Below are positions 7,228-29,322 of a stretch of 29,991 nucleotides of DNA, in pieces. A model generated the notes under the pieces. The model searched no databases, had not been told where the DNA came from, and worked only from the letters and a program-made list of their open reading frames with translations. This stretch comes from a virus. Numbering within the stretch: position 1 is the stretch's first letter; each line of letters starts with the position of its first letter. A program made the translations under genes and the position numbers. The stretch covers positions 1 through 29,991 of IMG/VR virus record IMGVR_UViG_3300006921_000085, one strand, 5' to 3'.

Positions 7228-7740
7228 ATGAAATTAGAAGTAATAAGGTTCAACAAAGGAGTGGACTCAACAAACGGAATACTATTTGATATAACAAATG
7301 AAAGAAAATTTTTATGCTATACTCTCGAAGATGAGAGCCGCACTGAAAAAGTGTGGGGAGAAACTTGTATACCTGAAGGAGAGTATTGTGTCGGTCTTAG
7401 GACAGTGGGCGGACACCATGCTAAGTACTCTAAAAGGTTTGCTGACATCCATACGGGGATGCTTCACGTACTTGATGTACCTAATTTTAAATACATTCTT
7501 ATTCATTGCGGCAATACTGACGAAGATACTGCGGGATGTTTACTCTTGGGCGACTCGCAAGAAAACAACAACATTAAAGAAAACGGTTTCATCGGACGCT
7601 CCACACAAGCGTACTTCAGGGTCTACCCGCAAATCGCAAAAGCGCTCGAAGAAGGCGAAGAAGTAACAATTACTTACAGAGATTTTGCTGAGTGCTTGGT
7701 GTTAGACCCAAACTTTGTTTCTCTTGAAGGAGAGGCTTAA
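7228..7740 (+). CDS. DUF5675-type protein, possible lysis function
   Basis: The 170-residue protein matches my memory of the DUF5675 phage family: CYTLEDESRTEKVWGETCIPEGEY, split here as TLEDE, then GETCIPEGEY, LRTVGGHH, RFADIHTGMLHVLDVP, and ILIHCGNTDEDTAGCLLLG. The His-x-Gly-Asn and Thr-x-Gly-Cys pair recalls the His/Cys catalytic arrangement of L,D-transpeptidase-like folds, so action on peptidoglycan is plausible but unproven. The family is of uncharacterised function and often lies near lysis genes. There is no signal peptide. A second reading frame is open inside it (7298-7666). The gene ends 6 bp from a convergent gene. Confidence 0.75.
   Translation: MKLEVIRFNKGVDSTNGILFDITNERKFLCYTLEDESRTEKVWGETCIPEGEYCVGLRTVGGHHAKYSKRFADIHTGMLHVLDVPNFKYILIHCGNTDEDTAGCLLLGDSQENNNIKENGFIGRSTQAYFRVYPQIAKALEEGEEVTITYRDFAECLVLDPNFVSLEGEA
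7298..7666 (+). CDS. Nested open frame, holin-like, speculative
   Basis: A 122-codon frame lies wholly inside the DUF5675 gene in another frame. Its product has an amphipathic N-terminus, one strongly hydrophobic stretch (TYLMYLILNTFLFIAAIL, about residues 57-74) and a very basic tail (KSQKRSKKAKK). Membrane segment plus basic tail is the layout of many holins, and overlapping lysis genes are well known in phages. Against it, a shifted frame through a conserved beta-strand gene can produce hydrophobic runs by chance, and there is no independent start signal. I list it as a candidate only. Confidence 0.25.
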   Translation: MKENFYAILSKMRAALKKCGEKLVYLKESIVSVLGQWADTMLSTLKGLLTSIRGCFTYLMYLILNTFLFIAAILTKILRDVYSWATRKKTTTLKKTVSSDAPHKRTSGSTRKSQKRSKKAKK

Positions 7741-7745
7741 ACACA

Positions 7746-8165
7746 TTAATCTAACTCCCTATAAAAAGACTGAACTAAAAGCCTTGCTTTTTGTGTTAAG
7801 GCATACCTAACTCTATAGTTCATTTTTAACTCATCTCGAAACAAGTGGTCTTCATAATTTTGTGAAGGAGTTAGTTTGTCGAAGTGTTTATATATATACC
7901 CTTCTTTTACTAAAGGGTATATTACTCTTTCTGCTATATGTTTTCTAGAGTACTCATATTCTTTTGATGCATGGTCTATGGTCCAAAATTCTAAGTCATA
8001 AGCCCAAAGCATAAAAAACAATTCTTTCTCAAAAATATCATACCTTTTACAAAACCTTAAAAGTTTAGTTCTAAGATGTTTAAGGAAGTTTCTTTTTACG
8101 TACCTTTGATTTAGTCTAGAACTTTCCCTAAAAAGTTTTTTTTTAGCTACTTTGCTTTTTGGCAT
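7746..8165 (-). CDS. MarR-like winged-helix DNA-binding protein
   Basis: After a very basic N-terminal 45 residues, the 139-residue product shows a winged helix pattern: FEKELFFMLWAYDLEF, then TIDHASKEYEYSRKHIAERV as helix-turn-helix, then YPLVKEGYIYKHF and a wing, and a final helix KARLLVQSFYREL. This resembles MarR-family regulators, including the extended last helix used in dimerisation. It likely binds DNA and controls phage genes. It is divergent from the gene at 8170 with only 4 bp between starts, so autoregulation of both is plausible. Family assignment is by pattern only; the protein lacks any sensory domain. Confidence 0.65.
   Translation of the reverse strand: MPKSKVAKKKLFRESSRLNQRYVKRNFLKHLRTKLLRFCKRYDIFEKELFFMLWAYDLEFWTIDHASKEYEYSRKHIAERVIYPLVKEGYIYKHFDKLTPSQNYEDHLFRDELKMNYRVRYALTQKARLLVQSFYRELD
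8101..8108 (+). promoter_or_regulatory. -7 promoter box TACCTTTG
   Basis: A perfect TAnnTTTG match lies inside the 5' part of the divergent winged-helix gene, 61 bp before the ATG at 8170. A near match TACTTTG (about 8148-8154) lies closer to the start. Either may drive the rightward gene set beginning at 8170, overlapping the regulator gene. Confidence 0.4.
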
Positions 8166-8169
8166 TTAA

Positions 8170-8505
8170 ATGAGATTACTTCGTAAAGATATGGAAGAAC
8201 AGGCATTTTTCTTAGAGATCCAAAGATTATCTATGGAATTAGATGCTATTGTTGATATGTACGGTATGCGAGATAGGGTTGCTTCTATTATGGTTACAGG
8301 CCTAATAGATGAAGACATAATGGGGAACTCTAGATTAAAAGCTATATATAGCTACAGTATTGACTCAAAAGAAGAATTAGATAGTATATTACAATTTATA
8401 AATAGCACTTGGTATGATCCAGATGAAGGCGGCTCAATAGAAGAAGATGGATATAAAGACATTGACGATCTGTTAGATGGTACTGGTGTTGAATTAGAAG
8501 ATTAA
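8170..8505 (+). CDS. Acidic unknown protein, 111 aa
   Basis: The product has a helical N-terminal two-thirds (MEEQAFFLEIQRLSMELDAI and on) and a very acidic C-terminus rich in Asp and Glu (DGYKDIDDLLDGTG). There is no membrane segment, signal peptide or catalytic motif. It begins a rightward run of small genes with 1-2 bp spacing, so it is probably translated with the next gene. Acidic small phage proteins sometimes mimic DNA or act as assembly factors, but nothing here identifies either. Its divergent pairing with the winged-helix gene suggests it marks the start of a regulated operon. Confidence 0.6.
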   Translation: MRLLRKDMEEQAFFLEIQRLSMELDAIVDMYGMRDRVASIMVTGLIDEDIMGNSRLKAIYSYSIDSKEELDSILQFINSTWYDPDEGGSIEEDGYKDIDDLLDGTGVELED

Positions 8506-8506
8506 A

Positions 8507-8746
8507 ATGGAAGGACTTATTAGAAAAATTATAATCGGGGAAGACCCGAAAAACGCTATGGCTTACTACGTAGGTATGAGAGCTGGGCGAGGCGAGGTAA
8601 GCACCATTGTTCTTGATGACAGGCATCTTGTTAAGTACGGAAAACAAAGGTATTTAGTTTATATGCAAAGCGAAGACGATTCTCAAGTTCTTTGGAAATC
8701 TGTTGATTCTATGCCTTGTATAATTGAATACGACTGTAATTTTTAA
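8507..8746 (+). CDS. Small unknown protein, 79 aa
   Basis: One base separates the preceding stop from this ATG. The protein is a mixed alpha/beta sequence with a run of strands (STIVLDD, KQRYLVYMQS, CIIEYDCNF) and no recognisable motif. It ends one base before the next ATG. Its conservation cannot be judged here; the tight spacing and lack of overlap with other sensible frames are the evidence that it is a real gene. Confidence 0.55.
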   Translation: MEGLIRKIIIGEDPKNAMAYYVGMRAGRGEVSTIVLDDRHLVKYGKQRYLVYMQSEDDSQVLWKSVDSMPCIIEYDCNF

Positions 8747-8747
8747 A

Positions 8748-9035
8748 ATGGTAAGAAAAGAGCTATATACATCAGGCGGAGAGCTTAATTTACCAGATGG
8801 TACAAATTATATTGGAGCGTATCATGTACATGTAAATCAAGGGGCTATGGTTGGAGGGTTTCACAAGACAGAAGCTCATGATCGTTTAACACCAGCTAAT
8901 GCTGCTGCTATATTAAAAATAAGAGCAATACAACAAGAGCTTTCTAATGAAGCTGCAGAAAGAAAAAGAAGTTCCCGTAGACCAAGAATAACTACCTCTA
9001 GATCCTCAGGATCTTCTGGATCTTCTGGATATTAA
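8748..9035 (+). CDS. Small phage protein with YHVH/GGFH motif
   Basis: I start at the ATG at 8748 rather than the upstream in-frame TTG, because it follows the preceding stop by one base. The 95-residue product contains YTSGGELNLPDG, then GAYHVHVNQGAMVGGFHKTE and HDRLTPAN. This His- and Gly-rich pattern recurs, in my memory, in uncharacterised structural proteins of marine phages. The end is a Ser/Arg then Ser/Gly repeat (SSGSSGSSGY), likely flexible. It may be a minor virion protein, but no function is known. Confidence 0.6.
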   Translation: MVRKELYTSGGELNLPDGTNYIGAYHVHVNQGAMVGGFHKTEAHDRLTPANAAAILKIRAIQQELSNEAAERKRSSRRPRITTSRSSGSSGSSGY

Positions 9036-9049
9036 ATTAATTAAAATAA

Positions 9050-9637
9050 ATGAAAACTTTAGATATTTTTGTTGTTGAACTTGAGAAACAGTTCAAGGAC
9101 ACAATGACAACAGACTCTGGTTTGGAGTTATATGTAGATAACAGGTTTAATGAGTTTGAGCACAGGACTACAGAAGGCCCAGTAATTTGCTCTCCTTTAA
9201 AGTACGACACAGGTGTAAAGAAAGGTGATACACTATACTTTCATCACTTGGTTGTAATTAATGAAGGTCAAGTATTAACGGGTAATAAAAACCATTATCT
9301 AGTTAGATATGATCCTAATCACACTATAAACAATCAAGCTATAGCTTTTAAAAGCAAAAAAACTGGTAAGGTTAAACCCCTAATGGGTTGGGCTCTTTTA
9401 GAGTTTACAGAGCAAGAAGAGTTAGATATTAAATCAGATTTGATAGAAGTCGTAGACTTATCAGAAAAATTACCCACTAAGGGGCGTGTTGCTTTTGATA
9501 GTCCTTGGTTGGAAGAGCTTGGCGTTAAAGCAGGCGATGTGGTAGGATTTAAACAAAATAGAGATTATCGAATCAAGATAGAGGGGAAGGAGTATTACAG
9601 AACCCGTGCAGAAGACCTTCTTTATGTCGAAGCTTAA
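9050..9637 (+). CDS. Tandem GroES-like co-chaperonin
   Basis: The C-terminal half (about residues 112-195) reads as a GroES/Cpn10 domain: GWALLEF, then TKGRVAFDSP, GVKAGDVVGFKQNRDY, IKIEGKEYYRTRAEDLLYVEA. The N-terminal half has the matching elements DIFVVEL, EGPVICSPLKYDTGVKKGDTLYFHHLVV and VRYD, so the 195-residue protein looks like two GroES folds in series. GroES caps the GroEL chamber during folding. Phage versions such as T4 gp31 help fold the major capsid protein. The mobile GroEL-binding loop is not obvious in the first domain (TTDSGLELYV region) and is short in the second. The fold is well supported by motif order; co-chaperonin activity is inferred. Confidence 0.75.
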   Translation: MKTLDIFVVELEKQFKDTMTTDSGLELYVDNRFNEFEHRTTEGPVICSPLKYDTGVKKGDTLYFHHLVVINEGQVLTGNKNHYLVRYDPNHTINNQAIAFKSKKTGKVKPLMGWALLEFTEQEELDIKSDLIEVVDLSEKLPTKGRVAFDSPWLEELGVKAGDVVGFKQNRDYRIKIEGKEYYRTRAEDLLYVEA

Positions 9638-9914
9638 ATTTACTACAGCCTCAGCAGCTAAAAGATTAATGGCCAGCATGGAGGTGGCTATTGATAACAT
9701 GATAGAAGAGATTAAAAAACCTGTAGATCCAGACATTAGCGGTAGCGCTAGAAAGGCTGAACTTCAGTCTATTAAGCAGACCGCAACTGATTGCAAGGAG
9801 TTAATTATAGAGAGACAAAGACTAGAGCAGATGCTAAAGGACTTAAAGTCTAACGGAGAAATAGGAGAGGTTAAAGATTATTCAGGAGGGTTTGCTGAAA
9901 GATTTTCTAAATAA
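9624..9914 (+). CDS. Helical coiled-coil protein, 96 aa
   Basis: The ATG at 9624 overlaps the end of the GroES-like gene by 14 bases and is preferred over a GTG further upstream. The protein is almost wholly helical with heptad patterns (LMASMEVAIDNMIEEI, then LIIERQRLEQMLKDL) and ends in DYSGGFAERFSK. Its size, helical nature and position upstream of the large terminase would fit a small terminase subunit or assembly cofactor, but no helix-turn-helix is evident, so I leave the function open. Confidence 0.6.
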   Translation: MSKLKFTTASAAKRLMASMEVAIDNMIEEIKKPVDPDISGSARKAELQSIKQTATDCKELIIERQRLEQMLKDLKSNGEIGEVKDYSGGFAERFSK

Positions 9915-10267
9915 TGCCTTATAAAAATCCCGAAAAACAAGCTGCTGCTTCTAAAAGACATTACGAGGCTAACAAAGAAAAAGTAAAATTAAGGTCTAAA
10001 AAAAGAAATAGAAAACAATTAAGTATAAATAAAAAATATGTTGATAAAGTAAAAAGTGAGTCTGGGTGTGTAGATTGCGGTGAAACAAATCATATTGTTT
10101 TAGATTTTGATCATGTAAATGGCAATAAATATAAAAGCGTATCTGCTATGGTTCATGAGTATTATTCCGTAAATGCTATACAAAAAGAAATAGATAAATG
10201 CGAAGTTAGATGCGCTAATTGCCATAGACAAGTGACTCACGAAAGACGAAAAAAAAATAAAAGTTAA
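9914..10267 (+). CDS. HNH endonuclease
   Basis: The 117-residue protein has a basic helical N-terminus and then a complete HNH core: CVDC (C52, C55), the catalytic segment LDFDHVNGNK with H67, and CEVRCANCHRQVTHERR, giving the second pair of zinc-binding cysteines (C100, C103) and the closing His. Such nucleases cut DNA with a single metal ion. Free-standing HNH genes near terminases can be homing nucleases or partners in DNA packaging. Here the gene overlaps its neighbour as TAATG, showing it is integrated in the operon rather than inserted in a gene. Confidence 0.9.
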   Translation: MPYKNPEKQAAASKRHYEANKEKVKLRSKKRNRKQLSINKKYVDKVKSESGCVDCGETNHIVLDFDHVNGNKYKSVSAMVHEYYSVNAIQKEIDKCEVRCANCHRQVTHERRKKNKS

Positions 10268-10269
10268 AA

Positions 10270-10632
10270 ATGAAACAGTTTATATTTATATTAATAATGA
10301 TTGCTAGTTTGCCAGTTTTAGGGCAATGTAATCAGCATGTTTTTAGTTCTGTTGGGGCTGAAAAATGGACTAACTTCCAATATCAAGACTGTGATGGTTT
10401 AAGCCACTATTTTGGGCTTCCTGCTGGAGGTTACACTATTATATATTGTGCTGAAATAACCACAGCTTTTGTTTTAAATGGAGATGGGTTTGTATACCCA
10501 CTTCTTCAAGAGCACCCATCTTATGCTTCTTGTGTTCAATTAGTTTGCCAAGGTGATTTCGATGAAGATGGTATAGTAGGCGTTAATGATTTGCAAGTGT
10601 TTTTATTAAATTATGGATTATGCGAAAATTAA
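10270..10632 (+). CDS. Secreted dockerin-like protein, 120 aa
   Basis: A signal peptide (MKQFIFILIMIASLPVLGQ) ends in the Gly-Gln junction typical of Bacteroidetes. The mature protein has several cysteines and ends with GDFDEDGIVGVNDLQVFLLN, a calcium-loop pattern like half of a dockerin repeat (D-x-D-x-D-G-x-V-x-x-x-D-L). Domains of this type are common in secreted proteins of marine Bacteroidetes. Only one loop is present, so classical cohesin binding is doubtful. It overlaps the following T9SS cargo gene by 13 bases, so the two are probably made together and may act as partners outside the cell. Confidence 0.7.
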   Translation: MKQFIFILIMIASLPVLGQCNQHVFSSVGAEKWTNFQYQDCDGLSHYFGLPAGGYTIIYCAEITTAFVLNGDGFVYPLLQEHPSYASCVQLVCQGDFDEDGIVGVNDLQVFLLNYGLCEN

Positions 10633-11759
10633 TATATCTTTTGGCTTTGTGGGCCCCAATAACATCTGCTCAGTGTGATGTAGCTATAACCAGTTGGGAT
10701 GCCGCTACTGGGGATATTGCTATTGAGGCTATAAATAGTGAAAACTGCGGGTGCAATGAATTTACGTCTGAAGGAAACACCTGCGAAACAAGCGCTAGCC
10801 CTCACGTAAACAATAACACAACAGTAAGCCATTTTGTGTTAGGACTTCATGTAGAAGGGTTAGATTACAACTGGCTAGACTGTCTCACTGGAGTTAATCA
10901 TGAAGGATGGACGTTTAAAGTAGCTTCTCTTTTTGGAAATCAAGTTTTAGAAAGTGGCGACACGTGGGAGGCTAATATCTACGATTATAATGGATCCACA
11001 AACGATTGTTGGACAGAGATACTATCAAATGACACCCTATGTACTGAATTAGTCATATGGCAAATCAACTTGTCTCGAACAGCCTCAACAGAGCAAGGCG
11101 GATGGGCGCTAAATCAAGGGTTTAACCAAACGCAGAACTATCCTGACGTAGATCTTTCTAATAACACGGCTGTAAACTGTGCTTTACCTGCGTGTGACAC
11201 CGTGTATGTAGAAACTATTGAATACATAGATGTCATTGAATACATAAGTGTTACTGAATACGTTACGGACACGTTATATATAGATGTTGAGTGGATAACA
11301 ACTGACACGATATATATAACAGAGACTATTACTGAATACGACACTATTGTATTAACGGAAACTGAATATGTTGATGTTATAATAGATAATTATGTTTACG
11401 TTACAGACACCATAACAGAGTTCGTATCTATTACTACATACATTGATTGTGAAACTGGAGAGGAGTGTGGTGAACTTTCACCTTGTGATGAAACTTCTAT
11501 ATATGCGCCTAATGTTGTTACACCTAATGGAGACGGATGGAATGATACGTGGAAGGTAATTGCAGATGGATCCTGTTGGGACCAATGGGAGGTACGTGTG
11601 TACAACAGGTGGGGAGGTCTTGTTTGGATTAGCGCTTCTTCAATAGATGAGTGGGATGCTAATGTTGCAACAGGAACATATGTGTACACTATTGAGGCAC
11701 ATAGCTCTGTTAATGCTAATGTTTTTCAGTTTAACGGGACTGTTACCGTTGTCTATTAA
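10620..11759 (+). CDS. T9SS type B cargo protein, 379 aa
   Basis: The protein has a signal peptide (MRKLIYLLALWAPITSAQC), a Cys-containing globular region to about residue 190, a Thr/Tyr/Val/Glu/Asp repetitive strand-rich stalk (about 194-275, for example TDTIYITETITEYDTI), and a C-terminal domain from about 293. That domain carries YAPNVVTPNGDGWNDTW, VRVYNRWGGLVW and GTYVYTIEA. This is the CHU_C type B sorting domain known from gliding-associated proteins secreted by the type IX system. It implies export through the host inner and outer membranes to the surface or medium. Such a domain is unexpected in a phage gene. Whether the protein is in the virion or shown on infected cells is unknown. 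Confidence 0.85.
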   Translation: MRKLIYLLALWAPITSAQCDVAITSWDAATGDIAIEAINSENCGCNEFTSEGNTCETSASPHVNNNTTVSHFVLGLHVEGLDYNWLDCLTGVNHEGWTFKVASLFGNQVLESGDTWEANIYDYNGSTNDCWTEILSNDTLCTELVIWQINLSRTASTEQGGWALNQGFNQTQNYPDVDLSNNTAVNCALPACDTVYVETIEYIDVIEYISVTEYVTDTLYIDVEWITTDTIYITETITEYDTIVLTETEYVDVIIDNYVYVTDTITEFVSITTYIDCETGEECGELSPCDETSIYAPNVVTPNGDGWNDTWKVIADGSCWDQWEVRVYNRWGGLVWISASSIDEWDANVATGTYVYTIEAHSSVNANVFQFNGTVTVVY

Positions 11760-12057: not shown

Positions 12058-12246
12058 ATGGCAAAGTATAAATGCAGCTGCAACGATGATATTGTAGAAA
12101 AGTCTGGGGTAACAATAAGATTTATTGAAGGTAAGGGAGCTGTGCACGACATAAAGTGCAGTAAGTGTGACGAATACTTAGAGTTAGCTAACCCCAAGTC
12201 TGGGGCTCCCAGCTTTAGGGCAAACAGGTTTGGCCAAACATTTTGA
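12058..12246 (+). CDS. Zinc-ribbon-like protein before the terminase
   Basis: The 62-residue protein has a CSC near residue 6 and CSKC near residue 34, spaced like a small zinc ribbon, and ends with ELANPKSGAPSFRANRFGQ. Proteins of this layout commonly sit immediately before the large terminase gene in marine phages, in my recollection. A packaging-related or DNA-binding role is therefore plausible. The stop codon overlaps the terminase start as TTGA. No enzymatic motif is visible, and the role is not established. Confidence 0.7.
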   Translation: MAKYKCSCNDDIVEKSGVTIRFIEGKGAVHDIKCSKCDEYLELANPKSGAPSFRANRFGQTF

Positions 12247-14366
12247 GTTCTCTCTTACATGTTGAAGGGTATGAAGAGCCAGCTGTTAAGATTTGCCCCA
12301 ATGGTACGGAAGGTGAAGTTATCGAAATCGGTGGGCTACTCATTTGTCTTCCCAAGAAGCCGCCGAAAAAACAAATTTCAGGATTTGACAATTCAAAGTC
12401 GTTGCAAGTGTGGGAAAGAACACATATGCCGAAGGAGCTGTCTCGTATTCGTTCTATGGATGAGTGGGCCGAGATGCCGAGAGAATTTAGAGAAAGGTTT
12501 CGTCCATATATCGAGGAAGAGTTTAGGCGTAGGCGTGAGGGTTTTTGGTTTTATAACAACAGCACAGCTACATATATTACGGGGAGGCACTACATGATGC
12601 TACAGTGGACCAAACTGGACATTGGTTACCCTTACTTTTTAAACTTTCAACGTGAGATATTTTTACACATGGCTGCTTGCGAGACTGATTCTCGTTGTAT
12701 TGGTCAGCTTTATACTAAGTGCCGTCGTTCTGGGTACACCAATATTTGTTCTGCTGTACTTGTCGATGAAGCTACACAGGTTAAAGATAAACTTATGGGG
12801 ATACAGTCGAAGACGGGAAAGGACGCACAAGAAAACATCTTCATGAAGAAGGTGGTTTATATGTTCAGAAACTACCCATTCTTTTTTAAACCTATACAAG
12901 ACGGTACTACTAATCCACGTATGGAGCTAGCTTTTAGAGAGCCGTCAAAACGAATAACTAAAAACAATAAAACTTCCCAAACTGGGGAAGCTCTTAATAC
13001 GGTTATAAATTGGAAAAACACAACTAATAATGCATATGACGGTGAGAAGCTACACTTGTTATATTTAGACGAAGCAGGAAAATGGGAAAGACCTACAGAC
13101 ATAAGAGACGCATGGAGGATTCAGAGGACGTGTTTGATCGTCGGAAGAAAAATCGTGGGGAAAGCTCTGGTCGGAAGCACGGTAAATCCGATGGACAAAG
13201 GTGGAAGTCAGTACAAGGATCTATGGAAGGACTCGAACCCTTTAGAAAGAAACGCCAACGGTAGGACAAGAACAGGGCTATACAGGTTATTTATACCCGC
13301 TTATGAATCTTTAGAAGGGTTTTTTGACGAGTATGGTATGCCCGTAGTAGAAGACCCATCAAGTGTTATAAAAGGTTTGGATGGGGAAGACATAATTTTT
13401 GGTGCAAAAACATATCTTAAAAACGAAAGACAGTCATTAAAAGATGACCCATCAGAATTAAACGAGGTAACTAGGCAGTTTCCTTTTACCACTGATGAGG
13501 CTTTTAGGGATAGTATAGATGGGAGTTTATTTAATATTGGTAGAATATATGAACAGATTCATTATAACGATGAGCTATTCCCAAACCCTGTAGTTGTAGG
13601 TAATTTTGTCTGGAAGGATGGTCAGAAAGACACAGAAGTGGTTTTTAAACCAGATCCAAAAGGAAGGTTTAAGGTGTCTTGGATGCCTCCACCAGAATTA
13701 AGGAATAAAAAAATCCACGAGAAGGGTAAGGTTATGCCAGCAAATATAGCCCTAGGTGTTGGAGGTGTTGACTCATACGATCTTGACGCTACGGTTGATG
13801 GACGAGGCTCAAAAGGAGCACTACACTTATATAATAAATTCCATATGGAGTACCCTTCTAATATGTTTGTTTTAGAGTACGCTTCAAGACCGCCGTTAGC
13901 TAAAATATTTTACGAAGATGTTTTAATGGCTGCGGTTTTTTACGGTTACCCTATATTAATTGAGAACAATAAGTACGGTATTGCAAGGTACTTTGAAACA
14001 AGGGGTTACGACGGATATTTAATGAATAGGCCAGCTCATTTAACTTCAGCAAGTTCTAAAGTTAATGTAAAGACAAAAGGGCTGCCGTCCAATTCTCAAG
14101 ACATTATTCAAGCTCACGCACACGCTATTGAAGCTTATGTACACAACCACATAGGAACTAATCCAGAAACAGGAGAAGTAGGTAATATGTATTTTAACAA
14201 AACTTTAGAAGATTGGATTGGTTTTAATATAAATAATAGAACAAAGTTTGACCTTACTATAAGCTCTGGTTTAGCATTACTTGCTGCTCAAAAATCTAAA
14301 ATAAAAAAGAAGCAATCTAACTTCACGGAGAGGAAATTCTTTAGGAGATATAAGTCTATCTCTTAG
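12243..14366 (+). CDS. terL: Terminase large subunit
   Basis: This is the motor and nuclease that packages DNA into proheads. The ATPase half shows YTKCRRSGYT (157-166) as a deviant Walker A, LLYLDEAGKW (272-281) as Walker B with D276 and E277, and GSTVNP (311-316) as the coupling motif. The nuclease half carries GGVDSYDLDA with D510 and ILIENNKYG with E574, as in the RNase H-like domain of terminases. The length of 707 residues is normal to long. I keep the TTG start at 12243: it overlaps the previous TGA as TTGA, and the first in-frame ATG would remove about 60 residues. The portal gene follows at once. Confidence 0.93.
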   Translation: MSSLLHVEGYEEPAVKICPNGTEGEVIEIGGLLICLPKKPPKKQISGFDNSKSLQVWERTHMPKELSRIRSMDEWAEMPREFRERFRPYIEEEFRRRREGFWFYNNSTATYITGRHYMMLQWTKLDIGYPYFLNFQREIFLHMAACETDSRCIGQLYTKCRRSGYTNICSAVLVDEATQVKDKLMGIQSKTGKDAQENIFMKKVVYMFRNYPFFFKPIQDGTTNPRMELAFREPSKRITKNNKTSQTGEALNTVINWKNTTNNAYDGEKLHLLYLDEAGKWERPTDIRDAWRIQRTCLIVGRKIVGKALVGSTVNPMDKGGSQYKDLWKDSNPLERNANGRTRTGLYRLFIPAYESLEGFFDEYGMPVVEDPSSVIKGLDGEDIIFGAKTYLKNERQSLKDDPSELNEVTRQFPFTTDEAFRDSIDGSLFNIGRIYEQIHYNDELFPNPVVVGNFVWKDGQKDTEVVFKPDPKGRFKVSWMPPPELRNKKIHEKGKVMPANIALGVGGVDSYDLDATVDGRGSKGALHLYNKFHMEYPSNMFVLEYASRPPLAKIFYEDVLMAAVFYGYPILIENNKYGIARYFETRGYDGYLMNRPAHLTSASSKVNVKTKGLPSNSQDIIQAHAHAIEAYVHNHIGTNPETGEVGNMYFNKTLEDWIGFNINNRTKFDLTISSGLALLAAQKSKIKKKQSNFTERKFFRRYKSIS

Positions 14367-14381
14367 AAACGTGTTATTTAG

Positions 14382-14389
14382 TATATTTG
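14382..14389 (+). promoter_or_regulatory. -7 promoter box TATATTTG before portal
   Basis: TATATTTGCA lies 18 bases before the portal ATG at 14408, preceded by TTTAG. A TTG at 14387 inside the box could be misread as a start codon, but it would fall at the edge of or before the transcript. Confidence 0.65.
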
Positions 14390-14407
14390 CATAAATACTA
14401 CCCCCTG

Positions 14408-16870
14408 ATGTATAAAAACGACAATAAAAGTTCAGGCAGCTTTCCCGATCCACTAGCGTCTCAGCAAATAAAAGAAAGTAAGGCCTATGGATTAAAGTAT
14501 GCAAAAGCAATTGAATCTCAGTGGGGAAAAGTCCAAGATTCAGGTTCTCTATACAATAAGAGAAACAAAACTTTTGAAAGAAATAGAGACTACGCTAACG
14601 GAACTCAAGACACAAATATATATAAGCAGATTTTAACAAATCTTGATCCAAACAACTCAGATGGTAGTCTTATTAATTTAGACTATACTCCAGTACCAGT
14701 ACTTCCTAAGTTCGCAAAAATTGTAGCTAATAAGATTTTATCTCGTAATCCTTACCCAAACCTTGAAGCTATTGACCCAATATCTTCTTCTGACAAGAAT
14801 AAAGAAAAACAAAGGATTAAAATTCAGGTCGAGTTAAAGGAGCAGTTAATGCAGCTCAAAAAGGATACTAACGGTTTAGTTTTAGATCAAGATCCTGAAA
14901 TGCTTCCAGACACTTTAGAGGAGGCAGATATATTTTTAGACACAAACATTAAGACTGACGCTGAAATATCAGCTCAGATTGGCACTAATTTAACGCTTTC
15001 TTGGAATAACTTTAATGACGCTATCTACAGAAGGTGTGTTAATGATTTAGTTGCTCTTGGCATGTGTGTTGTTAGACGGACTAACGATCCTAGTTATGGG
15101 ATTAAAACGGAATATGTAGATCCCTGTAACTTTATACATAGCCAAACGGAAGACCCCAATTTTGAGGATCTTGTGTACGCAGGCAACGTTAAAAGGATTA
15201 CTATACAAGAGTTAAAAAGATTAGCAGGGGACAGATTCACAGAGGAGCAGTATAAAGAAATCGCTACTGATTCGGCTAGATCTAAATCACACGATACATC
15301 TAAATTTTCTAGATCTAAGTATGATAATTCCTTAAACAAAAATGCTTATGGGTATGATGACTACACAGTAGAATTACTGGATTTTGAGTTCATGTCTGTA
15401 GACTGCATGCATTTCGAGGAGAAGGAAAATAGACACGGTAATAGAAACTTTTTCTACGAAGGTTTTAACTATAAGGAAAAGACAGGGGGTGTGTTTGAGC
15501 GTAAGCCTCATAGAATGGATATAGTCACCGTTTATGGGGGGTTATATATTTTAGGGACAAAGCATATTTTCGACTACGGGATGAAAACTAATGTTCCTAG
15601 AAATATGCATGACATAGGTAGAACTCGCATGGGTTATTCTGTTGTTGCTACCAACTTTAGAGGGATGATGCCTAAGTCTATGGTAGATGGGTGCGTTGGT
15701 TTTGCTGATATGCTTCAAATAACTCATTTAAAGTTACAGCAATCTATAGCTAAAGCTAAGCCAGATGGTTTAATTATAGATATTGAAGGTTTAGAAAACG
15801 TTCAGCTAGGAAAAGGCGGGGAATTACAACCTCTTGAGCTTCATGACATTTATGAGCAAACTGGTGTTTTTTACTACAGAAGTAAAGACCCAGAGGGCGG
15901 ATTTCAAAACCCACCAGTACGTACTATAGATAATAGTATTAGAAATATAAACGAGCTTATATCTTTATATAATCACTATTTAAGGTTAATTAGAGACACA
16001 ACTGGTATCAATGAAGCTATGGACGCTTCTACACCGAAAGGAGATGCTTTAGTTGGAGTTCAACAACAAGCTATTGCGGCTGGTAATAATGCTATATATG
16101 ATATAACTAACGCTTCTATGATCTTATTTAAAAAGGTCTGTGAGGATGTTGTTAAATGTTTGCAGATCATACCACCAGAATCTGTGCTTATGACTATCTA
16201 CCAAAATGCTATTGGTAAGTCGAACATGGAGGTTTTAAGTTCTTTTAGTGATTTACCTATGTTTAACTTTGGTGTTACTGTTCAGAAAGAAATGGAAGAT
16301 GCTGAAAAAGCATATTTAGAGCAGAATATTCAAATGGCTCTTCAACAGCAGCAAATAGATTTAGAAGATGCAATAGCTATTAGAAATCTAAAGGATGTAA
16401 ATCAAGCTGAAAGATTGCTTATTATCCGTCGCAAAAAGAGGATGGATAAAATGGAGGCTCAGGCTATGCAAAATTCTCAAATGCAAGCTCAACAGGCTCA
16501 ACAGGCTTCTCAAGCAGCTTCGCAAGCTAGGCAACAAGAACTTCAAATGGGAGCTCAACTTGAAGCGCAAAAACTTCAAATGAAGTCTCAACTAGAAATT
16601 CAAGTAGCTCAAGCAAAACACGAGTTGAATAAAGAGATAGAAATGATTAGAGCTGAAGCAACCCTAGGATTTAAGACTGACGACCAAGAGTTTAAAGAGA
16701 AAATTGAAGTTCTTAAAGAGGATAGAAAAGATAGTAGAGTTAAAAAACAAGCTGCTCAACAAAGCAAACTAATGTCTCAAAGAAAAGGTCAAAGAGGCGA
16801 GTTGATAGATCCTGTAGATATGAGTGAAACACAAGAACTAGATGAAACTGTTCAAAACATATTACAATAA
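14408..16870 (+). CDS. Portal protein
   Basis: The 820-residue product follows the terminase and has the layout of phage portals. There is an N-terminal helical region (QIKESKAYGLKYAKAIESQW), an alpha/beta core with an EYVDPCNFIHSQTEDPNF segment typical of portal wing/stem regions, and RDTTGINEAMDASTPKGDAL matching the conserved GIxE...G helix region. A long Gln/Lys/Ala coiled coil occupies the C-terminal 160 residues, as in portals with a barrel. It would form a dodecameric ring at the capsid vertex through which DNA passes. I start at ATG 14408 because the upstream TTG lies inside the promoter box. It overlaps the next gene by one base. Confidence 0.9.
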   Translation: MYKNDNKSSGSFPDPLASQQIKESKAYGLKYAKAIESQWGKVQDSGSLYNKRNKTFERNRDYANGTQDTNIYKQILTNLDPNNSDGSLINLDYTPVPVLPKFAKIVANKILSRNPYPNLEAIDPISSSDKNKEKQRIKIQVELKEQLMQLKKDTNGLVLDQDPEMLPDTLEEADIFLDTNIKTDAEISAQIGTNLTLSWNNFNDAIYRRCVNDLVALGMCVVRRTNDPSYGIKTEYVDPCNFIHSQTEDPNFEDLVYAGNVKRITIQELKRLAGDRFTEEQYKEIATDSARSKSHDTSKFSRSKYDNSLNKNAYGYDDYTVELLDFEFMSVDCMHFEEKENRHGNRNFFYEGFNYKEKTGGVFERKPHRMDIVTVYGGLYILGTKHIFDYGMKTNVPRNMHDIGRTRMGYSVVATNFRGMMPKSMVDGCVGFADMLQITHLKLQQSIAKAKPDGLIIDIEGLENVQLGKGGELQPLELHDIYEQTGVFYYRSKDPEGGFQNPPVRTIDNSIRNINELISLYNHYLRLIRDTTGINEAMDASTPKGDALVGVQQQAIAAGNNAIYDITNASMILFKKVCEDVVKCLQIIPPESVLMTIYQNAIGKSNMEVLSSFSDLPMFNFGVTVQKEMEDAEKAYLEQNIQMALQQQQIDLEDAIAIRNLKDVNQAERLLIIRRKKRMDKMEAQAMQNSQMQAQQAQQASQAASQARQQELQMGAQLEAQKLQMKSQLEIQVAQAKHELNKEIEMIRAEATLGFKTDDQEFKEKIEVLKEDRKDSRVKKQAAQQSKLMSQRKGQRGELIDPVDMSETQELDETVQNILQ

Positions 16871-17304: not shown

Positions 17305-18843
17305 ATGAGCGTAGAAGTTACAACGACATCTGGAAATACTGTAACCGCTACGGTTTCGGGAGGTACTGACGTTACATTTTCAACGACGTCTACTTCTGTT
17401 TCTGTAACAGCTCCTTCATCTTCAAGTATTTTTGTTTCTGAAAAGGGGCCTAAAGGAGACACTGGGGTTACTGGAGCTACGGGCTCTACTGGCGCTACGG
17501 GTGCTACTGGAGCTGCTGGACCTACGTATAGTGTTTCTTGTGTAGATGGCGACAATTCAGATGAAGAAAAAATAAGACTAACGGGAAGTGATTCATCTAC
17601 AGATGACGTGGTTTTAGAAGCTGGCACAGGATTAAGTATAGCAAGAAATAGCGATAAAATTACTTTCACTAATACCGTTTCAGATACTAATACTCAGCTA
17701 TCTACTGAAGAGGTTCAAGATATCGTTGGTGGTATGTTTAGCTCTAATACCGAAACTAGGGTTACAGCTACATACGTTGATGGTGGAGATGGAGCTGGTA
17801 AAATAAATGTGGTTGTTGATGATATGACAGCTAATGACAATACTCAGCTATCTACAGAAGAGGTTCAAGATATTGCAGGCCCTTTAGTTGCTACTGGTGG
17901 AACTAAAACTAACATTGCAGTTACATATGATGATGCTAGCGGCAATATGGATTTTGTTGTAGCTTCAGATTTAAACACTACGGGTAACGCTGGCACAGCT
18001 ACTGCTTTAGCCACAGCGAGAGCAATTAACGGCGTAGACTTTGACGGTACTGCTCCTATAACTGTAACAGCTGCGGGGTCTACGTTATCCGATACAGTAA
18101 CTGTAGCTAAAGGCGGCACTGGATTAACAACTGTAGCCGCTAATACAATATTAACGGGAAACGGGACAAGTGCTTTAACGTCTGAATCTAATTTAACTTT
18201 TGGATCAGACCGTTTAATTATTGGAGCTAATGCTGAGATAACACCTCAGTTAAGGCTTACAAACGACGAAAATACTGTTAATATTGGAGTGTCTGACGCT
18301 TCTGACAATTTAATTATCGGTTCGGCAGATGGCGACTTTGTTGTTAATTGTTCGGGGGATCACAACGTTTTATTTGGTCAAAACAATGCAATAGCCGCAA
18401 AAATAGACACTGACGGTAATTTTAATTTTAATCGTAGGTTTACGGTTACGGGGGATACAGATGGAACGTTTGAGGGTGATGTAGTATATTTTGGTGGTAC
18501 AACATCAATGACGGATGGGAGAATATATCACTATAAATCTGACGGCACTTGGGAGGCCGCTGATGCTTCTACGGTTGCTACTTCTGACGGATTGCTTGCT
18601 GTTGCTTTAGGAGCTGCTTCAGACACTAACGGAATGCTTCTAAGAGGGATGGTTACTTTAGACCATGATGCAGGAGCTGTGGGAGATGTTTTATTTATTA
18701 ATACAGCGGGAAACGGAGCTGCAACTTCTACTGCTCCATCTAGTAATAATAATATAGTAAGAGTTATAGGATATTGCTTGCACGCATCTAATGGACAGAT
18801 TTGGTTTAACCCAGACAATACGTTTGTTGAAGTAACAGCGTAA
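17305..18843 (+). CDS. Tail fibre protein with collagen-like segment
   Basis: Domains in order: a beta-rich head; a collagen-like triplet stretch at residues 48-73 (GPKGDTGVTGATGSTG and on); two repeats beginning NTQLSTEEVQDI at residues 129 and 179, exactly 50 codons apart; a GNAGTATALATARAINGVDF and VAKGGTGLTT segment typical of trimeric fibres; a beta-helix-like middle; and a C-terminal domain from about residue 405 (GLLAVALGAASDTNGMLLRG, then GQIWFNPDNTFVEV) often found at fibre tips in marine phages. It should recognise or contact the host surface. Fibre trimerisation is inferred from the collagen and GGTG motifs. Confidence 0.85.
   Translation: MSVEVTTTSGNTVTATVSGGTDVTFSTTSTSVSVTAPSSSSIFVSEKGPKGDTGVTGATGSTGATGATGAAGPTYSVSCVDGDNSDEEKIRLTGSDSSTDDVVLEAGTGLSIARNSDKITFTNTVSDTNTQLSTEEVQDIVGGMFSSNTETRVTATYVDGGDGAGKINVVVDDMTANDNTQLSTEEVQDIAGPLVATGGTKTNIAVTYDDASGNMDFVVASDLNTTGNAGTATALATARAINGVDFDGTAPITVTAAGSTLSDTVTVAKGGTGLTTVAANTILTGNGTSALTSESNLTFGSDRLIIGANAEITPQLRLTNDENTVNIGVSDASDNLIIGSADGDFVVNCSGDHNVLFGQNNAIAAKIDTDGNFNFNRRFTVTGDTDGTFEGDVVYFGGTTSMTDGRIYHYKSDGTWEAADASTVATSDGLLAVALGAASDTNGMLLRGMVTLDHDAGAVGDVLFINTAGNGAATSTAPSSNNNIVRVIGYCLHASNGQIWFNPDNTFVEVTA
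17691..17880 (+). repeat. 150-bp tandem repeat in the fibre gene
   Basis: A nearly identical stretch of more than 30 bases (starting TACTCAGCTATCTAC) occurs at 17691 and again at 17841, an offset of exactly 150 bp or 50 codons. It encodes the repeated NTQLSTEEVQDI segment and could mediate recombination or length change in the fibre. Confidence 0.7.
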
Positions 18844-19506: not shown

Positions 19507-19514
19507 TATATTTG
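19507..19514 (+). promoter_or_regulatory. -7 promoter box TATATTTG, leaderless type
   Basis: TATATTTGCAAT directly precedes the ATG at 19519, leaving four bases between box and start codon, the same as at 2827-2839. ATTAG precedes the box, as in the portal promoter. No -33 TTG is present at normal spacing. Confidence 0.65.
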
Positions 19515-19518
19515 CAAT

Positions 19519-21840
19519 ATGAAGAACAAAGTTTATTTATTATTAGTTTTATTTTTTTCTATTACAGGATCTTTGTTTTCTCAGCCAGACAATGCTAGCT
19601 GGTTAAATGTAACAGTGCAAACAGATCAATACGGTGGAGAAACGTCTTGGGAGGTGCTAATGGGTGGAAATGTTGTTGCAACAAGCCCTCCTTATCAAGA
19701 CAATGTGTTAAGCAACGTAACTATCCCTTTACCAGCAGGGGATGATTATCAGTTTATTATTTATGACTCTTTTGGAGATGGTATATGTTGTGATTGGGGA
19801 GCAGGGTGGTATAGCTTAACCAACACGTGTGGATTGGAAGTATTTGACTATGAATTTAACACAGCTTCTGATACGACCTCATTTGATTTAATGCCTTGTA
19901 TGCCAGTTCTTTTAGGATGTATGGATGAATCTTCTAATAACTACAACCCTTGGGCTACTGTAGATGACGGCTCATGTAATGTAAACGAGTGTCCTTCTGA
20001 TGAAACGCTTGTTTCTATGTCTCTCACTCTGGATAATTACCCTAGCGAAACAGGGTTTACTTTAGTAGATTTAGCTGCAGGAGAGTTTTATGAGCAGGTG
20101 CTTCCTCAAGAATTTGATTATGGTGACCAAAACGCAACTTTTACATACAACTTTTGTGTTTCTCTAGGTTTTGAACTTATACTTGTAGATACGTATGGAG
20201 ACGGATTAAGTGCTTCTCAATGGGGAGGGACAGACGGTGCTTGTGTTATCACAGCGTGTCAAGACAGCGTTTTATGGGAATTGGAAGATGTGTCTTTCAC
20301 CAGTTTTGATGATGGCAACACTGTTTATTCTGGAGCTATTTTTACAGAGCCTTGTCCACCAATACCGCCAATATACGGATGCACCGATGACGACTACGTA
20401 GATTACAATCCTTATGCTACTGCGTTAGACACATGTGCAACTTTACATGCTTGGGGGTGCATGGATATCAATGCATTTAACTACGACAGTACAGCAACAA
20501 TATCAGATCTAAATAGCCCCTGTCCCATAACTATTACTCTAGAGGATGACGCTGGTGACGGGTGGGGTATGTCTGGAATTGGTATGGTTCAAGAAAATAA
20601 TCAATGGTTATTTACTGTAGGACCAAATGAGTTTTCGCAATCATGGGACATTATGTTAGATTCCAATGAGGATGTAGATATATATTATTTTCAACAAGGG
20701 GGGCAGCAATCATCTGCACAAGAGCTTGCTTTTCAGACCTTGCATAATTCTATATTAGTAACAAATGAGATGGGGGACACCTTGCTTTCAGAGGGGTCTA
20801 ATCCGTTTTTAAATAACGGACAGGGAGCTTTGCAACCTTTTAAAGCGCCTGAATGGAACGTATACAGCTTTACACCTGAATGTGGAGACAGCTGCGAACC
20901 ATACACATATGGATGTGTTGATGATACAGCTCAAAACTACAACCCTAATGTAAACACGGGGGACGAAAGCTGTTACTACGCAGCTGGTTGTACTCAAGCT
21001 GGATACTTAGAATACTATACTCAAGGGTATGAAGCTGACTACGATAATGGTGATTGTGATGTACTTGCGGTATTTGGTTGCATGGATAGTACGGCGTTTA
21101 ATTACAACGAAGAAGCAAATGTAGAAACAGAATGTACTCCTATAATTATTGGTTGCATGAATAATTTAGCGTTTAACTACGATGCTAATGCTAATACAGC
21201 AGGTGACTGTATGCCTTACATATATGGGTGTACAGACCCTACAGCTTTTAACTACAACCCTGAAGCGAATACTGATAATAGTGATTGTGAGCCAGTAACC
21301 TTAGGATGCACTGATGAACAAGCGTTAAACTACGACCCATTAGCTAATACAGATAACGGTGGTTGCGTTGAAGTATTGGTTGACTGTACGGACCCTATTG
21401 CTGTGAATTACAATGAATTAGCTAACACTCCTAACAACGATTTATGTTTATACGACGCAGGTTGTATTGGCGAGGCTGGCGATCCATACTACTTAAATGA
21501 CTCATGTTACGCTTGGATTATAGATATAGATCCATACTGCTGTGAGGTAGCTTGGGATGGGGCTTGTGTTGAGTTATATGGTTATTGTGAATCTGGATGG
21601 CCATCTGGTGTATACGATGTAGATGGTATATATAATGTTTATCCTAATCCAGTATTAGACATTTTAAACATTCAGACTTCGCTAGACGTAATTACAGAGG
21701 TATATAACGCACTTGGCCAGATTGTAGTGTTAGGGACTAGAGAAAAAAGAATTGACCTTACAAACCTTCCTAAAGGCTTTTATCAGGTTGTTATAAAATA
21801 TAACGATAGAACTTCAATTAAAAAAATAATTAAATCATGA
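19519..21840 (+). CDS. T9SS type A cargo, multi-repeat secreted protein
   Basis: The 773-residue protein has a signal peptide ending GSLFSQ and two or three beta domains with Asp/Gly-rich calcium-type turns (FIIYDSFGDGICCDWG; ELILVDTYGDGLS; DDAGDGWGMSG). It then has about nine or ten Cys repeats of the form GCTDPTAFNYNPEANTDN, spread over residues about 130-650, and a Cys-rich unit DPYCCEVAWDGACVELYGYC. The end (YNVYPNPVLDILNIQTS...GFYQVVIKY...IKKIIKS) is the type A T9SS sorting domain. All of these are hallmarks of large surface or secreted proteins of marine Bacteroidetes. It has its own promoter and is followed by an ATGA overlap with the next gene. How the phage uses it is unknown. Confidence 0.85.
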   Translation: MKNKVYLLLVLFFSITGSLFSQPDNASWLNVTVQTDQYGGETSWEVLMGGNVVATSPPYQDNVLSNVTIPLPAGDDYQFIIYDSFGDGICCDWGAGWYSLTNTCGLEVFDYEFNTASDTTSFDLMPCMPVLLGCMDESSNNYNPWATVDDGSCNVNECPSDETLVSMSLTLDNYPSETGFTLVDLAAGEFYEQVLPQEFDYGDQNATFTYNFCVSLGFELILVDTYGDGLSASQWGGTDGACVITACQDSVLWELEDVSFTSFDDGNTVYSGAIFTEPCPPIPPIYGCTDDDYVDYNPYATALDTCATLHAWGCMDINAFNYDSTATISDLNSPCPITITLEDDAGDGWGMSGIGMVQENNQWLFTVGPNEFSQSWDIMLDSNEDVDIYYFQQGGQQSSAQELAFQTLHNSILVTNEMGDTLLSEGSNPFLNNGQGALQPFKAPEWNVYSFTPECGDSCEPYTYGCVDDTAQNYNPNVNTGDESCYYAAGCTQAGYLEYYTQGYEADYDNGDCDVLAVFGCMDSTAFNYNEEANVETECTPIIIGCMNNLAFNYDANANTAGDCMPYIYGCTDPTAFNYNPEANTDNSDCEPVTLGCTDEQALNYDPLANTDNGGCVEVLVDCTDPIAVNYNELANTPNNDLCLYDAGCIGEAGDPYYLNDSCYAWIIDIDPYCCEVAWDGACVELYGYCESGWPSGVYDVDGIYNVYPNPVLDILNIQTSLDVITEVYNALGQIVVLGTREKRIDLTNLPKGFYQVVIKYNDRTSIKKIIKS

Positions 21841-27879: not shown

Positions 27880-29322
27880 ATGGCTACTACTACTGGGGCT
27901 TCACCTTTGAATGCTGCACCTGCAGATTTAAGGTTAACGCCCGAATCATATACTACGGTTGATGGCTTACTAAAAGCGAATAAAGATTTCGTTATTCCTG
28001 AGCTAGTTCAATCATACGGTGATCAAGGTATCACTGGTTTTTTACGTTTAACTGGAGCTGTTAATAGCGGCGGAACTTCTGACCAAGTTGATTGGTGGGA
28101 GGCAGGCCGTCGTCATACAAAGATTGACGCTGTTACTTTTGCATCTGCTGCTGCTGGTTCTGATGGAGCTGCTGCTGGTACTGTTCAAGCTACAGTTGAT
28201 ACATCTGCTATGGCTGCTGCTGGAGAGCAGTCCGCACACGTTTCTAGCTTCCTGCAACCAAGTGACGTTGTAATGTCTGTAAATACAGGAAGTCGATACA
28301 TTGTTCAGTCAGCTTCTACAGCTACTGATCCTGTAATTGTTCTTGAGCGTCTTGACGGTGGTAACGGAGCTCCTTCTGAAGCTACTACTACTAGTACTGA
28401 GACTCTTATTCACTTGGGAAATATGTATGCTCAAGGAACGGATCAACCTACTAAATTTACTGATCCTGATATTGTGAAAAGAAAGAATCCATTTATGATT
28501 GTTAAAGATCGTTATCAAGTAAATGGTTCTCAAGCTACAAATATTGGTTGGGTTAACATGGGTGGAGGAGATTTCCGCTGGTTTATGTACGGGGAGCAAG
28601 AGGCTCGTAAGCGTTTTGAAGACCGTCGTGAAATGATGATGCTTTTCGCTGAGAAAAACGCTGCTACAGTTGACGACTCTGCTGACTTGTCTGATAACAT
28701 CGCGGGTTCTGAAGGTTATTTCTCTGCTATTGAAAGTCGTGGAATTAACATAAGCAACGCTAACGCTAATCCAATTGATTCTTTTGCTGAGTTTGACGAT
28801 ATTATTATTGAGCTTGATAAGAACGGTGCTACTTCTGAGTACGCTATGTACGTAAACAGAAAGCAAGATTTAGCTATCGACGATATGCTTGCTTCAGGTA
28901 TTTCTACTGGAACTACTGCTGGTCTAGCTGGACAGTTCGGTGCGTTTAACAACGATGCTGACATGGCTGTTAAGCTTGGATTTAAGTCGTTTACTCGTGG
29001 TGGGTACACATTCCACAAGCATGACTGGAAGCTTCTAAACGATCCAACTCTTCTTGGTGCTTCTACTAAGTATCAAGGAGCTATGATCCCTATGTCTCAA
29101 ATTGCAGATGCTCGCACAGGTGTTAAAGCACCTTCTTTAGCAATGTACTACAAAGAGGCTAACGGATATAATCGTGAAATGGAGCACTGGGTAACTGGTG
29201 GAGGAGTTTTAGGACATAATAACAATGGAGATGCTGGTAAGGACGTTGCTACGTTCCACTACCGTTCAGAAATTGCTCTTTGTGTTCGTGCTGCTAACCA
29301 ACACGTAGTTATTAAAGGATAA
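27880..29322 (+). CDS. Major capsid protein
   Basis: The gene right after the scaffold encodes a 480-residue, balanced acidic protein that starts ATTTGASPLNAAPADLRLTP and contains VIPELVQSYGDQGITGFLRL, a typical N-arm/core boundary for HK97-type capsids, and ends in GGVLGHNNNGDAG, TFHYRSEIALCVRAANQHVV. Codon choice is strongly biased (CGT for Arg, GCT, GGT), unlike the AGA-rich neighbours, as expected of the most highly made phage protein. It would form the icosahedral shell. The Gly/Ser-rich insert around residues 65-130 may be an extra surface domain. The identity rests on position, length and codon bias. Confidence 0.85.
   Translation: MATTTGASPLNAAPADLRLTPESYTTVDGLLKANKDFVIPELVQSYGDQGITGFLRLTGAVNSGGTSDQVDWWEAGRRHTKIDAVTFASAAAGSDGAAAGTVQATVDTSAMAAAGEQSAHVSSFLQPSDVVMSVNTGSRYIVQSASTATDPVIVLERLDGGNGAPSEATTTSTETLIHLGNMYAQGTDQPTKFTDPDIVKRKNPFMIVKDRYQVNGSQATNIGWVNMGGGDFRWFMYGEQEARKRFEDRREMMMLFAEKNAATVDDSADLSDNIAGSEGYFSAIESRGINISNANANPIDSFAEFDDIIIELDKNGATSEYAMYVNRKQDLAIDDMLASGISTGTTAGLAGQFGAFNNDADMAVKLGFKSFTRGGYTFHKHDWKLLNDPTLLGASTKYQGAMIPMSQIADARTGVKAPSLAMYYKEANGYNREMEHWVTGGGVLGHNNNGDAGKDVATFHYRSEIALCVRAANQHVVIKG

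Follow-up and report, generated by a model that had tools for sequence, protein, structure and literature searches.

In the IMG/VR virus record IMGVR_UViG_3300006921_000085, we analyzed a stretch of 29,991 nucleotides (positions 1 to 29,991; referred to here as the window) that carries a gene for a large protein with the features of a cargo of the type IX secretion system (T9SS). This system is the main exporter of surface proteins in Bacteroidota hosts, and its use by phages is scarcely on record although such phages abound in the ocean. Our in silico data support the assignment of the protein as a genuine T9SS type A cargo of a tailed Bacteroidota phage. The cargo is not a one-off; its gene is near-universal and usually present as a single copy in a large group of uncultured marine phages, and it is kept with the genes for an outer-membrane β-barrel, a transmembrane/coiled-coil protein and a thioredoxin-fold protein in a cassette that is phage-specific. 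T9SS-dependent export would be a near-core feature of this large marine phage group, with the barrel as a candidate phage-made anchor. As we read these data, the cassette probably represents a late, near-core module that puts a multi-domain binding protein onto the infected cell, docked there on the phage barrel. The features of the window are compiled in Table 1.

Table 1. Features of the window, with the observations that bear on each assignment (aa, amino acids; nt, nucleotides; CTD, C-terminal domain).
Feature	Positions	Strand	Observations
T9SS type A cargo protein (C), 773 aa	19519-21840	+	TIGR04183, PF18962; 80 viral loci
Predicted signal peptide, aa 1-22	19519-19584	+	hydrophobic N-terminus, 75/75 complete relatives
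β-domain D1, aa 23-130	19585-19908	+	AlphaFold2 model; weak CBM60-like fold
β-domain D2, aa 155-278	19981-20352	+	secondary structure of AlphaFold2 model
β-domain D3, aa 330-455	20506-20883	+	secondary structure of AlphaFold2 model
Ten GCxDxxAxNYNxxA-type Cys repeats	19915-21453	+	three between β-domains, seven as a block
Conserved Cys domain, aa 646-692 (CYAWIIDIDPYCCEVAWDGACVELYGYC)	21454-21594	+	best-conserved part of the cargo; co-varies with the barrel
T9SS type A sorting domain (CTD), aa 706-773	21634-21837	+	profile matches; fold match to NucA CTD
TATATTTG, Bacteroidota -7-box-like motif	19507-19514	+	exactly 12 nt 5' of the cargo ATG
Small ORF, 66 aa	21837-22037	+	between cargo and barrel in some relatives; cluster 38, 7 loci
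Small ORF, 60 aa	22037-22219	+	between cargo and barrel in some relatives; cluster 15, 19 loci
Predicted 12-strand outer-membrane β-barrel (O), 364 aa	22216-23310	+	alignment, AlphaFold2 model
Single-transmembrane protein, coiled-coil-like C-terminal tail (M), 94 aa	23312-23596	+	
Secreted-looking thioredoxin-fold protein without CxxC (X), 120 aa	23603-23965	+	alignment, profile
Second T9SS cargo, 379 aa, type B sorting domain	10620-11759	+	PF13585 55 bits, TIGR04131 36.4 bits
Terminase large subunit	12243-14366	+	phrog_6681, E 9e-205
Portal protein	14387-16870	+	phrog_6547, E 3e-199
Collagen-like fibre	17305-18843		upstream of cargo
Virion structural, probable capsid protein	27880-29322	+	phrog_13704, E 4e-112

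The T9SS type A cargo gene and its phage origin

The cargo gene is an uninterrupted open reading frame (ORF) of 773 codons on the plus strand (positions 19519 to 21840), whose product has 773 amino acids. From the DNA letters alone, the original prediction had recognized a type A sorting domain at the C-terminus of this protein and had proposed profile searches and structural modelling as checks; both back the assignment. Residues 707 to 772 score above the cut-offs of the two family models, reaching 40.8 bits with TIGR04183 (cut-off 23) and 43.7 bits with PF18962 (cut-off 27). A family search over the record returned one match (E 2.5e-13), and TIGR04183 was matched by 27 of 27 diverse cargo relatives. 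The CTD modelled with AlphaFold2 has the fold of a translocon-bound cargo CTD; it superposes on that of NucA inside the T9SS translocon (8glk_D) with a Z score of 11.8 and 1.4 Å over 70 residues, at 31% identity. A further match is 8glj_D (Z 10.5), and the domains matched after NucA include those of FspA, mirolase (CTD, Z 10.1), RemZ and RgpB. The predicted protein resembles Bacteroidota type A cargo of the RgpB, NucA and FspA class in its signal-like N-terminus, its modular body and its CTD fold, and differs from it in being encoded by a phage and in having an obligate-looking partner barrel. All sequence and fold comparisons available to us agree with a T9SS type A cargo, and chance is not a reasonable explanation of the features of the protein.

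The remainder of the protein likewise has the modular build that had been proposed for it. Its N-terminus forms a signal-peptide-like hydrophobic stretch, as do the N-termini of all 75 cargo relatives with a complete start; signal-peptide calls in this study derive from a hydropathy test on the N-termini rather than from SignalP. The AlphaFold2 model contains three β-sandwich regions, where two or three β-domains had been expected, followed in turn by the main block of repeats, by a small Cys domain of helical structure and by the β-structured CTD. About ten Cys repeats of the GCTDPxAxNYNP type had been announced, and we counted ten (residues 133 to 647), nine of them close to GCxDxxAxNYNxxA and one degenerate; the protein possesses 37 Cys residues in total. 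The first β-domain, D1, bears a borderline fold resemblance to the carbohydrate-binding module CBM60 (2xfd; Z 7.3 over 88 residues). Single modules of the cargo have weak matches among secreted proteins of Bacteroidota, found in 54 of 395 genomes of the class Bacteroidia, as would be expected if the cargo had been assembled from host-type domains. Repeats of the GCTDP type are also present in a protein of Synechococcus phage S-CAM3 (H4) that is annotated as a virion structural protein.

The cargo gene had been placed between fibre and virion genes, and it does lie between a collagen-like fibre gene upstream and the gene for a capsid-type protein downstream (Table 1). The terminase of the window has relatives in Flavobacterium elemo phages and in Cellulophaga phages; these phages infect Flavobacterium and Cellulophaga, which bears on the availability of a T9SS in the host. 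Three metagenome-assembled genomes (MAGs) whose bins hold barrel-encoding contigs each possess several PorP/SprF genes, with the reservation that the binning of phage contigs is uncertain. A contig from another metagenome (L001) is 99.93% identical to the window over 15,177 bases, from the terminase gene to past the cassette. A protein-level scan of viral contigs yielded 84 stretches encoding cargo relatives, of which 80 were kept, i.e., the window and 79 further loci. The cargo gene is phage DNA, as had been claimed, since this contig and the further viral loci contradict a host fragment or an assembly join. A scan of the window for tRNA genes found none.

A phage-specific cassette of four genes

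Clustering of all ORFs of the first 81 loci revealed that three genes travel with that of the cargo (C), namely those for the outer-membrane barrel (O), the transmembrane/coiled-coil protein (M) and the thioredoxin-fold protein (X). To avoid circularity, we rescanned the viral contigs with the barrel alone, which gave at least 579 viral contig stretches that encode it, and then with a divergent barrel. Among the 70 loci that were found via the barrel alone and had 4.5 kb present on both sides, a CTD protein is encoded at most five genes from the barrel in 67 (38 of 39 and 29 of 31 in the two barrel scans). In each of the 87 distinct barrel loci with flanks, all cassette genes share one strand. 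Their order is COMX in 60 of these loci, MXCO in 11 and OMXC in 7, the rest being incomplete or doubled, and the three orders are cyclic permutations of each other. The cargo is kept in 86 of the 87 loci, the exception being L242. Of the 35 large records, which span about 49 to 156 kb and may not be complete genomes, 34 have a detectable type A tail; it exceeds the cut-off in 33, and as a rule a record has one such tail. A terminase matching phrog_6681 was also found in 34 of the 35, with E values from 1e-218 to 4e-6 that mark these terminases as widely divergent. The wide spread of the terminases, combined with the near-constant presence of the type A tail and the varied gene orders, indicates that the cargo is near-core and has been kept with its partners through rearrangements.

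Three barrel loci (L148, L242, L255) at first seemed to be without a CTD protein. The cargo of L148 (positions 7429-9489) ends in a divergent tail, VTDLLGRPITN...FFIYDDGSTERKLIINK, which escaped detection by the family-specific CTD model, while in L242 and in the L255 record the cargo is apparently absent, the whole L255 record being without a type A tail. The cargo of L193 is cut short and its tail is missing. In four loci (L115, L116, L118, L121), the barrel gene is directly preceded by the genes for two adjoining CTD proteins, as though the slot for the cargo had been duplicated. The terminase frames in the records of L043 (G411) and L255 (G432) are broken by TAG and TAA, for which inserts, frameshifts or recoding are possible explanations.

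The cassette is phage-specific. Among 84,980 species genomes, a pattern scan detected four relatives of the barrel, all on metagenome-assembled contigs, and in the class of one such MAG (Bacteroidia) the barrel is present in 1 of 395 genomes, the match being that MAG itself. No relatives of the barrel, X or M were found in 50,697 phage records, and the search of sequenced phages thus yielded no cultured model. None of the four cassette proteins matched any of the PADLOC models (systems described by 2023) at E 0.1.

The predicted properties of the partner proteins would place them in the cell envelope. Across the loci, O comprises about 344 to 365 residues, M 94 and X about 111 to 122. The AlphaFold2 model of O has twelve strands (mean predicted local distance difference test score, pLDDT, 73) and resembles the 12-strand barrels KdgM, EstA, NanC, Tsx and NalP (Z 14-15); its N-terminus is hydrophobic and signal-like in 68 of 68 proteins, and its C-terminus ends in a β-signal-like NYVIL in the window and in NYVIF in many relatives. 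The viral protein A0A516LKJ4 of the BFVD is similar to it (E 3e-22). SprF is an outer-membrane protein linked to T9SS cargo, and PorP/SprF and the phage barrel are alike in that an outer-membrane protein is paired with such a cargo. We considered an identity of the barrel with PorP/SprF and rejected it, as 1 of 36 members matched TIGR03519 at E 0.23 and the hhalign probability was 2.4%; the phage barrel has no profile relation to these proteins, and its cargo is of type A whereas theirs is of type B. The fold matches listed for O contained no PorV-like or other T9SS barrel, a finding that does not exclude them. The profile of X matches thioredoxins of the PDB at the sequence level (best E 6.8e-7); X has no CxxC redox motif, the corresponding region reading FNASFN or similar in the alignment, and its N-terminus is hydrophobic in 55 of 59 proteins. 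M is predicted to have one transmembrane segment and a coiled-coil-like tail, a layout that fits the inner-spanin pattern. No Pfam match and no solved relative were found for M, its PHROG matches are weak and belong to families of unknown function, and it has no sequence match among annotated spanins.

The pattern of sequence conservation connects one part of the cargo with the barrel. Mean pairwise identity is about 65% for the barrel and M, and within the cargo the 47-residue Cys domain reaches 67%, compared to 32-56% for the other parts (D1, 34%; the next segments, 45-47%; linker and CTD, 37%). Over 107 distinct cassettes, the sequence distances of the Cys domain correlate with those of the barrel (r 0.82), and the partial correlation given X and M is 0.69 (bootstrap 0.59-0.72). 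The partial r with the barrel is about 0.2-0.35 for D1 to D3 and the repeats, and that between the barrel and its neighbour M is 0.13. A sliding-window analysis located the peak of co-variation at cargo residues 647 to 717. In the OMXC loci (n = 11), in which the cargo gene does not adjoin that of the barrel, the value for the Cys domain and the barrel is still 0.57, while that for the CTD and the barrel drops to 0.21. The low value for the barrel and M and the persistence of the Cys-domain signal in these loci speak against gene proximity as the sole cause of the co-variation. This persistence, set against the lower value for the CTD, favours a contact of the Cys domain with the barrel over plain linkage. 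Since removal of the CTD by the sortase would turn the Cys domain into the C-terminal end of the mature cargo, docking through this domain would be structurally sensible.

Proposed role of the cassette and competing explanations

In the mechanism that we propose, the cassette would be expressed late, as judged from the fibre, portal and capsid genes, and often also lysis genes, that surround it. The host Sec system would move the cargo to the periplasm, the host T9SS would recognize the CTD and transport the body of the cargo through the outer membrane, and the CTD would presumably be cleaved off by the sortase of the host. The Cys domain ahead of the CTD would then most likely dock the exported cargo on the phage barrel, with the fast-changing outer domains and the Cys repeats reaching outwards as a binding surface on the infected cell. 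In this arrangement, C would be the surface member, O the outer-membrane component, M an inner-membrane coiled-coil protein and X a periplasmic thioredoxin-fold protein. The most likely use would be to alter what binds the infected cell or its debris, either by hiding receptors from other phages or from the progeny of the same phage, or by sticking to glycans or particles. We prefer receptor masking or adhesion in view of the rapid variation of the outward domains and of the borderline resemblance of D1 to a carbohydrate-binding module. Export of the cargo is strongly supported by its sequence features and docking on the barrel moderately so; the data weakly suggest an end use in receptor masking, adhesion or egress.

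For the exclusion of other phages by a phage envelope protein, T5 offers a functional analogy, for which we claim no sequence relation: its Llp, a small periplasmic lipoprotein encoded beside the receptor-binding gene, acts on the host receptor so that the infected cell refuses further phages (PMC9586334). If receptor masking is true, the cassette would provide a new type of superinfection exclusion, and if a role in egress is true, a new route through the outer membrane. The cassette turns a vague idea of phage surface remodelling into a concrete and testable complex. More tentatively, and short of favouring it, we consider that COMX may be a phage-only trans-envelope machine, in which X and M would connect the barrel with the inner membrane and the T9SS of the host would load the barrel with an exchangeable binding protein. 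If so, infected cells would display a surface organelle made by the phage, and this organelle would be near-universal across a major group of uncultured marine phages of Bacteroidota.

Several points weigh against the proposed surface role. The evidence consists of sequences and predicted models of uncultured phages, and the AlphaFold2 models of both the cargo and the barrel are of medium confidence (mean pLDDT 73 each). Export requires a host with a T9SS, and the host was deduced from the relatives of the terminase and from the sorting domain itself. The sequence pairs in the co-variation analysis are not independent, the OMXC group is small, and part of the C-O co-variation may be linkage. 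Late position and near-core status fit masking, but they would also be in keeping with a function in lysis or as part of the virion.

The main rival to a surface-binding role is an egress or lysis device, in which M, X and O would form a chain from the inner to the outer membrane that helps to disrupt the latter while the cargo weakens or holds the surface layer. This chain and the near-core, near-universal status of the gene set in these phages give the explanation its weight. As in phage spanins, M has a single transmembrane segment with a coiled-coil tail, and M, X and O would span the envelope. A gene for an M15 endolysin, a 3-transmembrane holin-like protein or a DUF5675 protein lies at most eight genes away in 44 of 88 distinct loci (PHROG endolysin and holin matches). 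In the other half, the window's own group included, there is no lysis gene nearby. M matches no spanin family, the outer partner would be a 12-strand barrel rather than a small lipoprotein, and it is not evident what a large repeat protein exported by the T9SS would do in lysis. We regard a lysis or egress device as rather unlikely.

Pick-up of the cargo by the virion is less likely than help in lysis or egress. Released from the cell or held on its surface, the cargo would bind progeny and aid their attachment to hosts, particles or mucus. In the portal-type group, the cargo gene has fibre and capsid genes around it, which would suit such a role, as would the GCTDP-type repeats of the cyanophage virion protein. 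The signal-like N-terminus and the sorting domain in all complete members tested would, however, remove the cargo from the cytoplasm, where heads and tails are assembled, and the linkage is to an outer-membrane barrel and not to any one tail gene. With these points in mind, we consider a virion role improbable.

Slightly less probable still is an optional gene for host fitness, whose product would serve the infected host as an adhesin or in scavenging, as has been proposed for the variable cargo of Cryophage. In this phage from cryoconite holes, an endoglucanase, a GH39 protein and a PA14 protein are T9SS type A cargo encoded in variable regions (Bellas et al., 2020, PMC7468147). The type B gene of the window also occupies a variable slot. 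The type A cargo, in contrast, is encoded near-universally, mostly by a single gene copy that is syntenic and tightly bound to its three partner genes. Its presence in 86 of 87 barrel loci and the detection of a type A tail in all but one of the 35 large records speak against an accessory cargo of the Cryophage kind. The two cases share phage-encoded type A sorting domains, read for Cryophage as a hijack of the host T9SS (PMC7468147). They differ in that one phage with variable enzymes and a PA14 protein stands against a near-core repeat protein without a recognized enzyme domain in many marine phages, tied here to phage genes for a barrel, a transmembrane/coiled-coil protein and a thioredoxin-fold protein. 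Among open-access papers on T9SS and phages, we found this study (PMC7468147) as the only true precedent; our searches of the open-access literature found no description of the cassette of four genes or of its abundance, nor of the phage barrel or the co-variation of the Cys domain. Our findings point to the cassette as a hitherto undescribed means by which phages remodel the surface of the host cell.

That the segment is host-derived, the remnant of a prophage or the product of an assembly join can be set aside with near certainty: single cargo domains do weakly resemble bacterial secreted proteins (54 of 395 genomes), but the independent contig L001 is nearly identical throughout the region, 79 further viral loci encode the cargo, 34 of the 35 large records have the terminase, and the barrel is present in 1 of 395 genomes of the class.

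Promoter motif, second T9SS cargo and neighbouring genes

The cargo gene had been thought to have its own promoter, and this proposal holds in part. A Bacteroidota -7-box-like motif precedes its start codon (Table 1). Among all genes of the related loci, TAnnTTTG was found at exactly 12 nt before the ATG in 54 of 2882 starts, compared to 0-12 at neighbouring spacings. A -33 box was not found at the usual distance upstream of the cargo gene, and a scan for sigma-70-like promoters and terminators performed no better than shuffled sequences. A cargo promoter at 19507-19514 is suggested by the motif and its enriched spacing. The enrichment at this spacing also suggests leaderless promoters in these phages. 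Most of the sampled portal genes have a TAnnTTTG box about 26-34 nt upstream.

The window encodes a second T9SS cargo, with a type B sorting domain. Its relatives were found in 73 viral loci, some of them on contigs of more than 160 kb, and the N-terminus is hydrophobic in 61 of 61 loci with a recognizable type B-like C-terminus and a complete start. The co-occurrence of type A and type B cargo in the window indicates that T9SS use by these phages is broader than one gene. Ahead of its tail, the type B cargo has an unusual stretch rich in T, V, E and Y (YIDVIEYISVTEYV...). An adjoining ORF (10270-10632) specifies a 120-residue signal-peptide protein with a dockerin/TSP3-like GDFDEDGIVGVNDLQVFLLNYG end, a possible partner of this cargo.

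Some other genes of the window and of its relatives are also of note. An HNH-endonuclease-like ORF (CVDCG...LDFDHVNG...CANCHRQVTH) was recognized by eye at 9914-10267. A 197-residue protein with a signal-like N-terminus is encoded at 6437-7030 on the minus strand, opposite to its neighbours, and was found in one other locus. A methyltransferase-like gene, likewise recognized by eye, lies within the fibre region of some relatives (L010, 8744-9307, and cluster 47). At 7228-7740, the window encodes a DUF5675 protein (PF18925, 94.5 bits; phrog_1501) with a possible role in the cell wall or in lysis, and members of this family are also encoded near the cassette in other loci.

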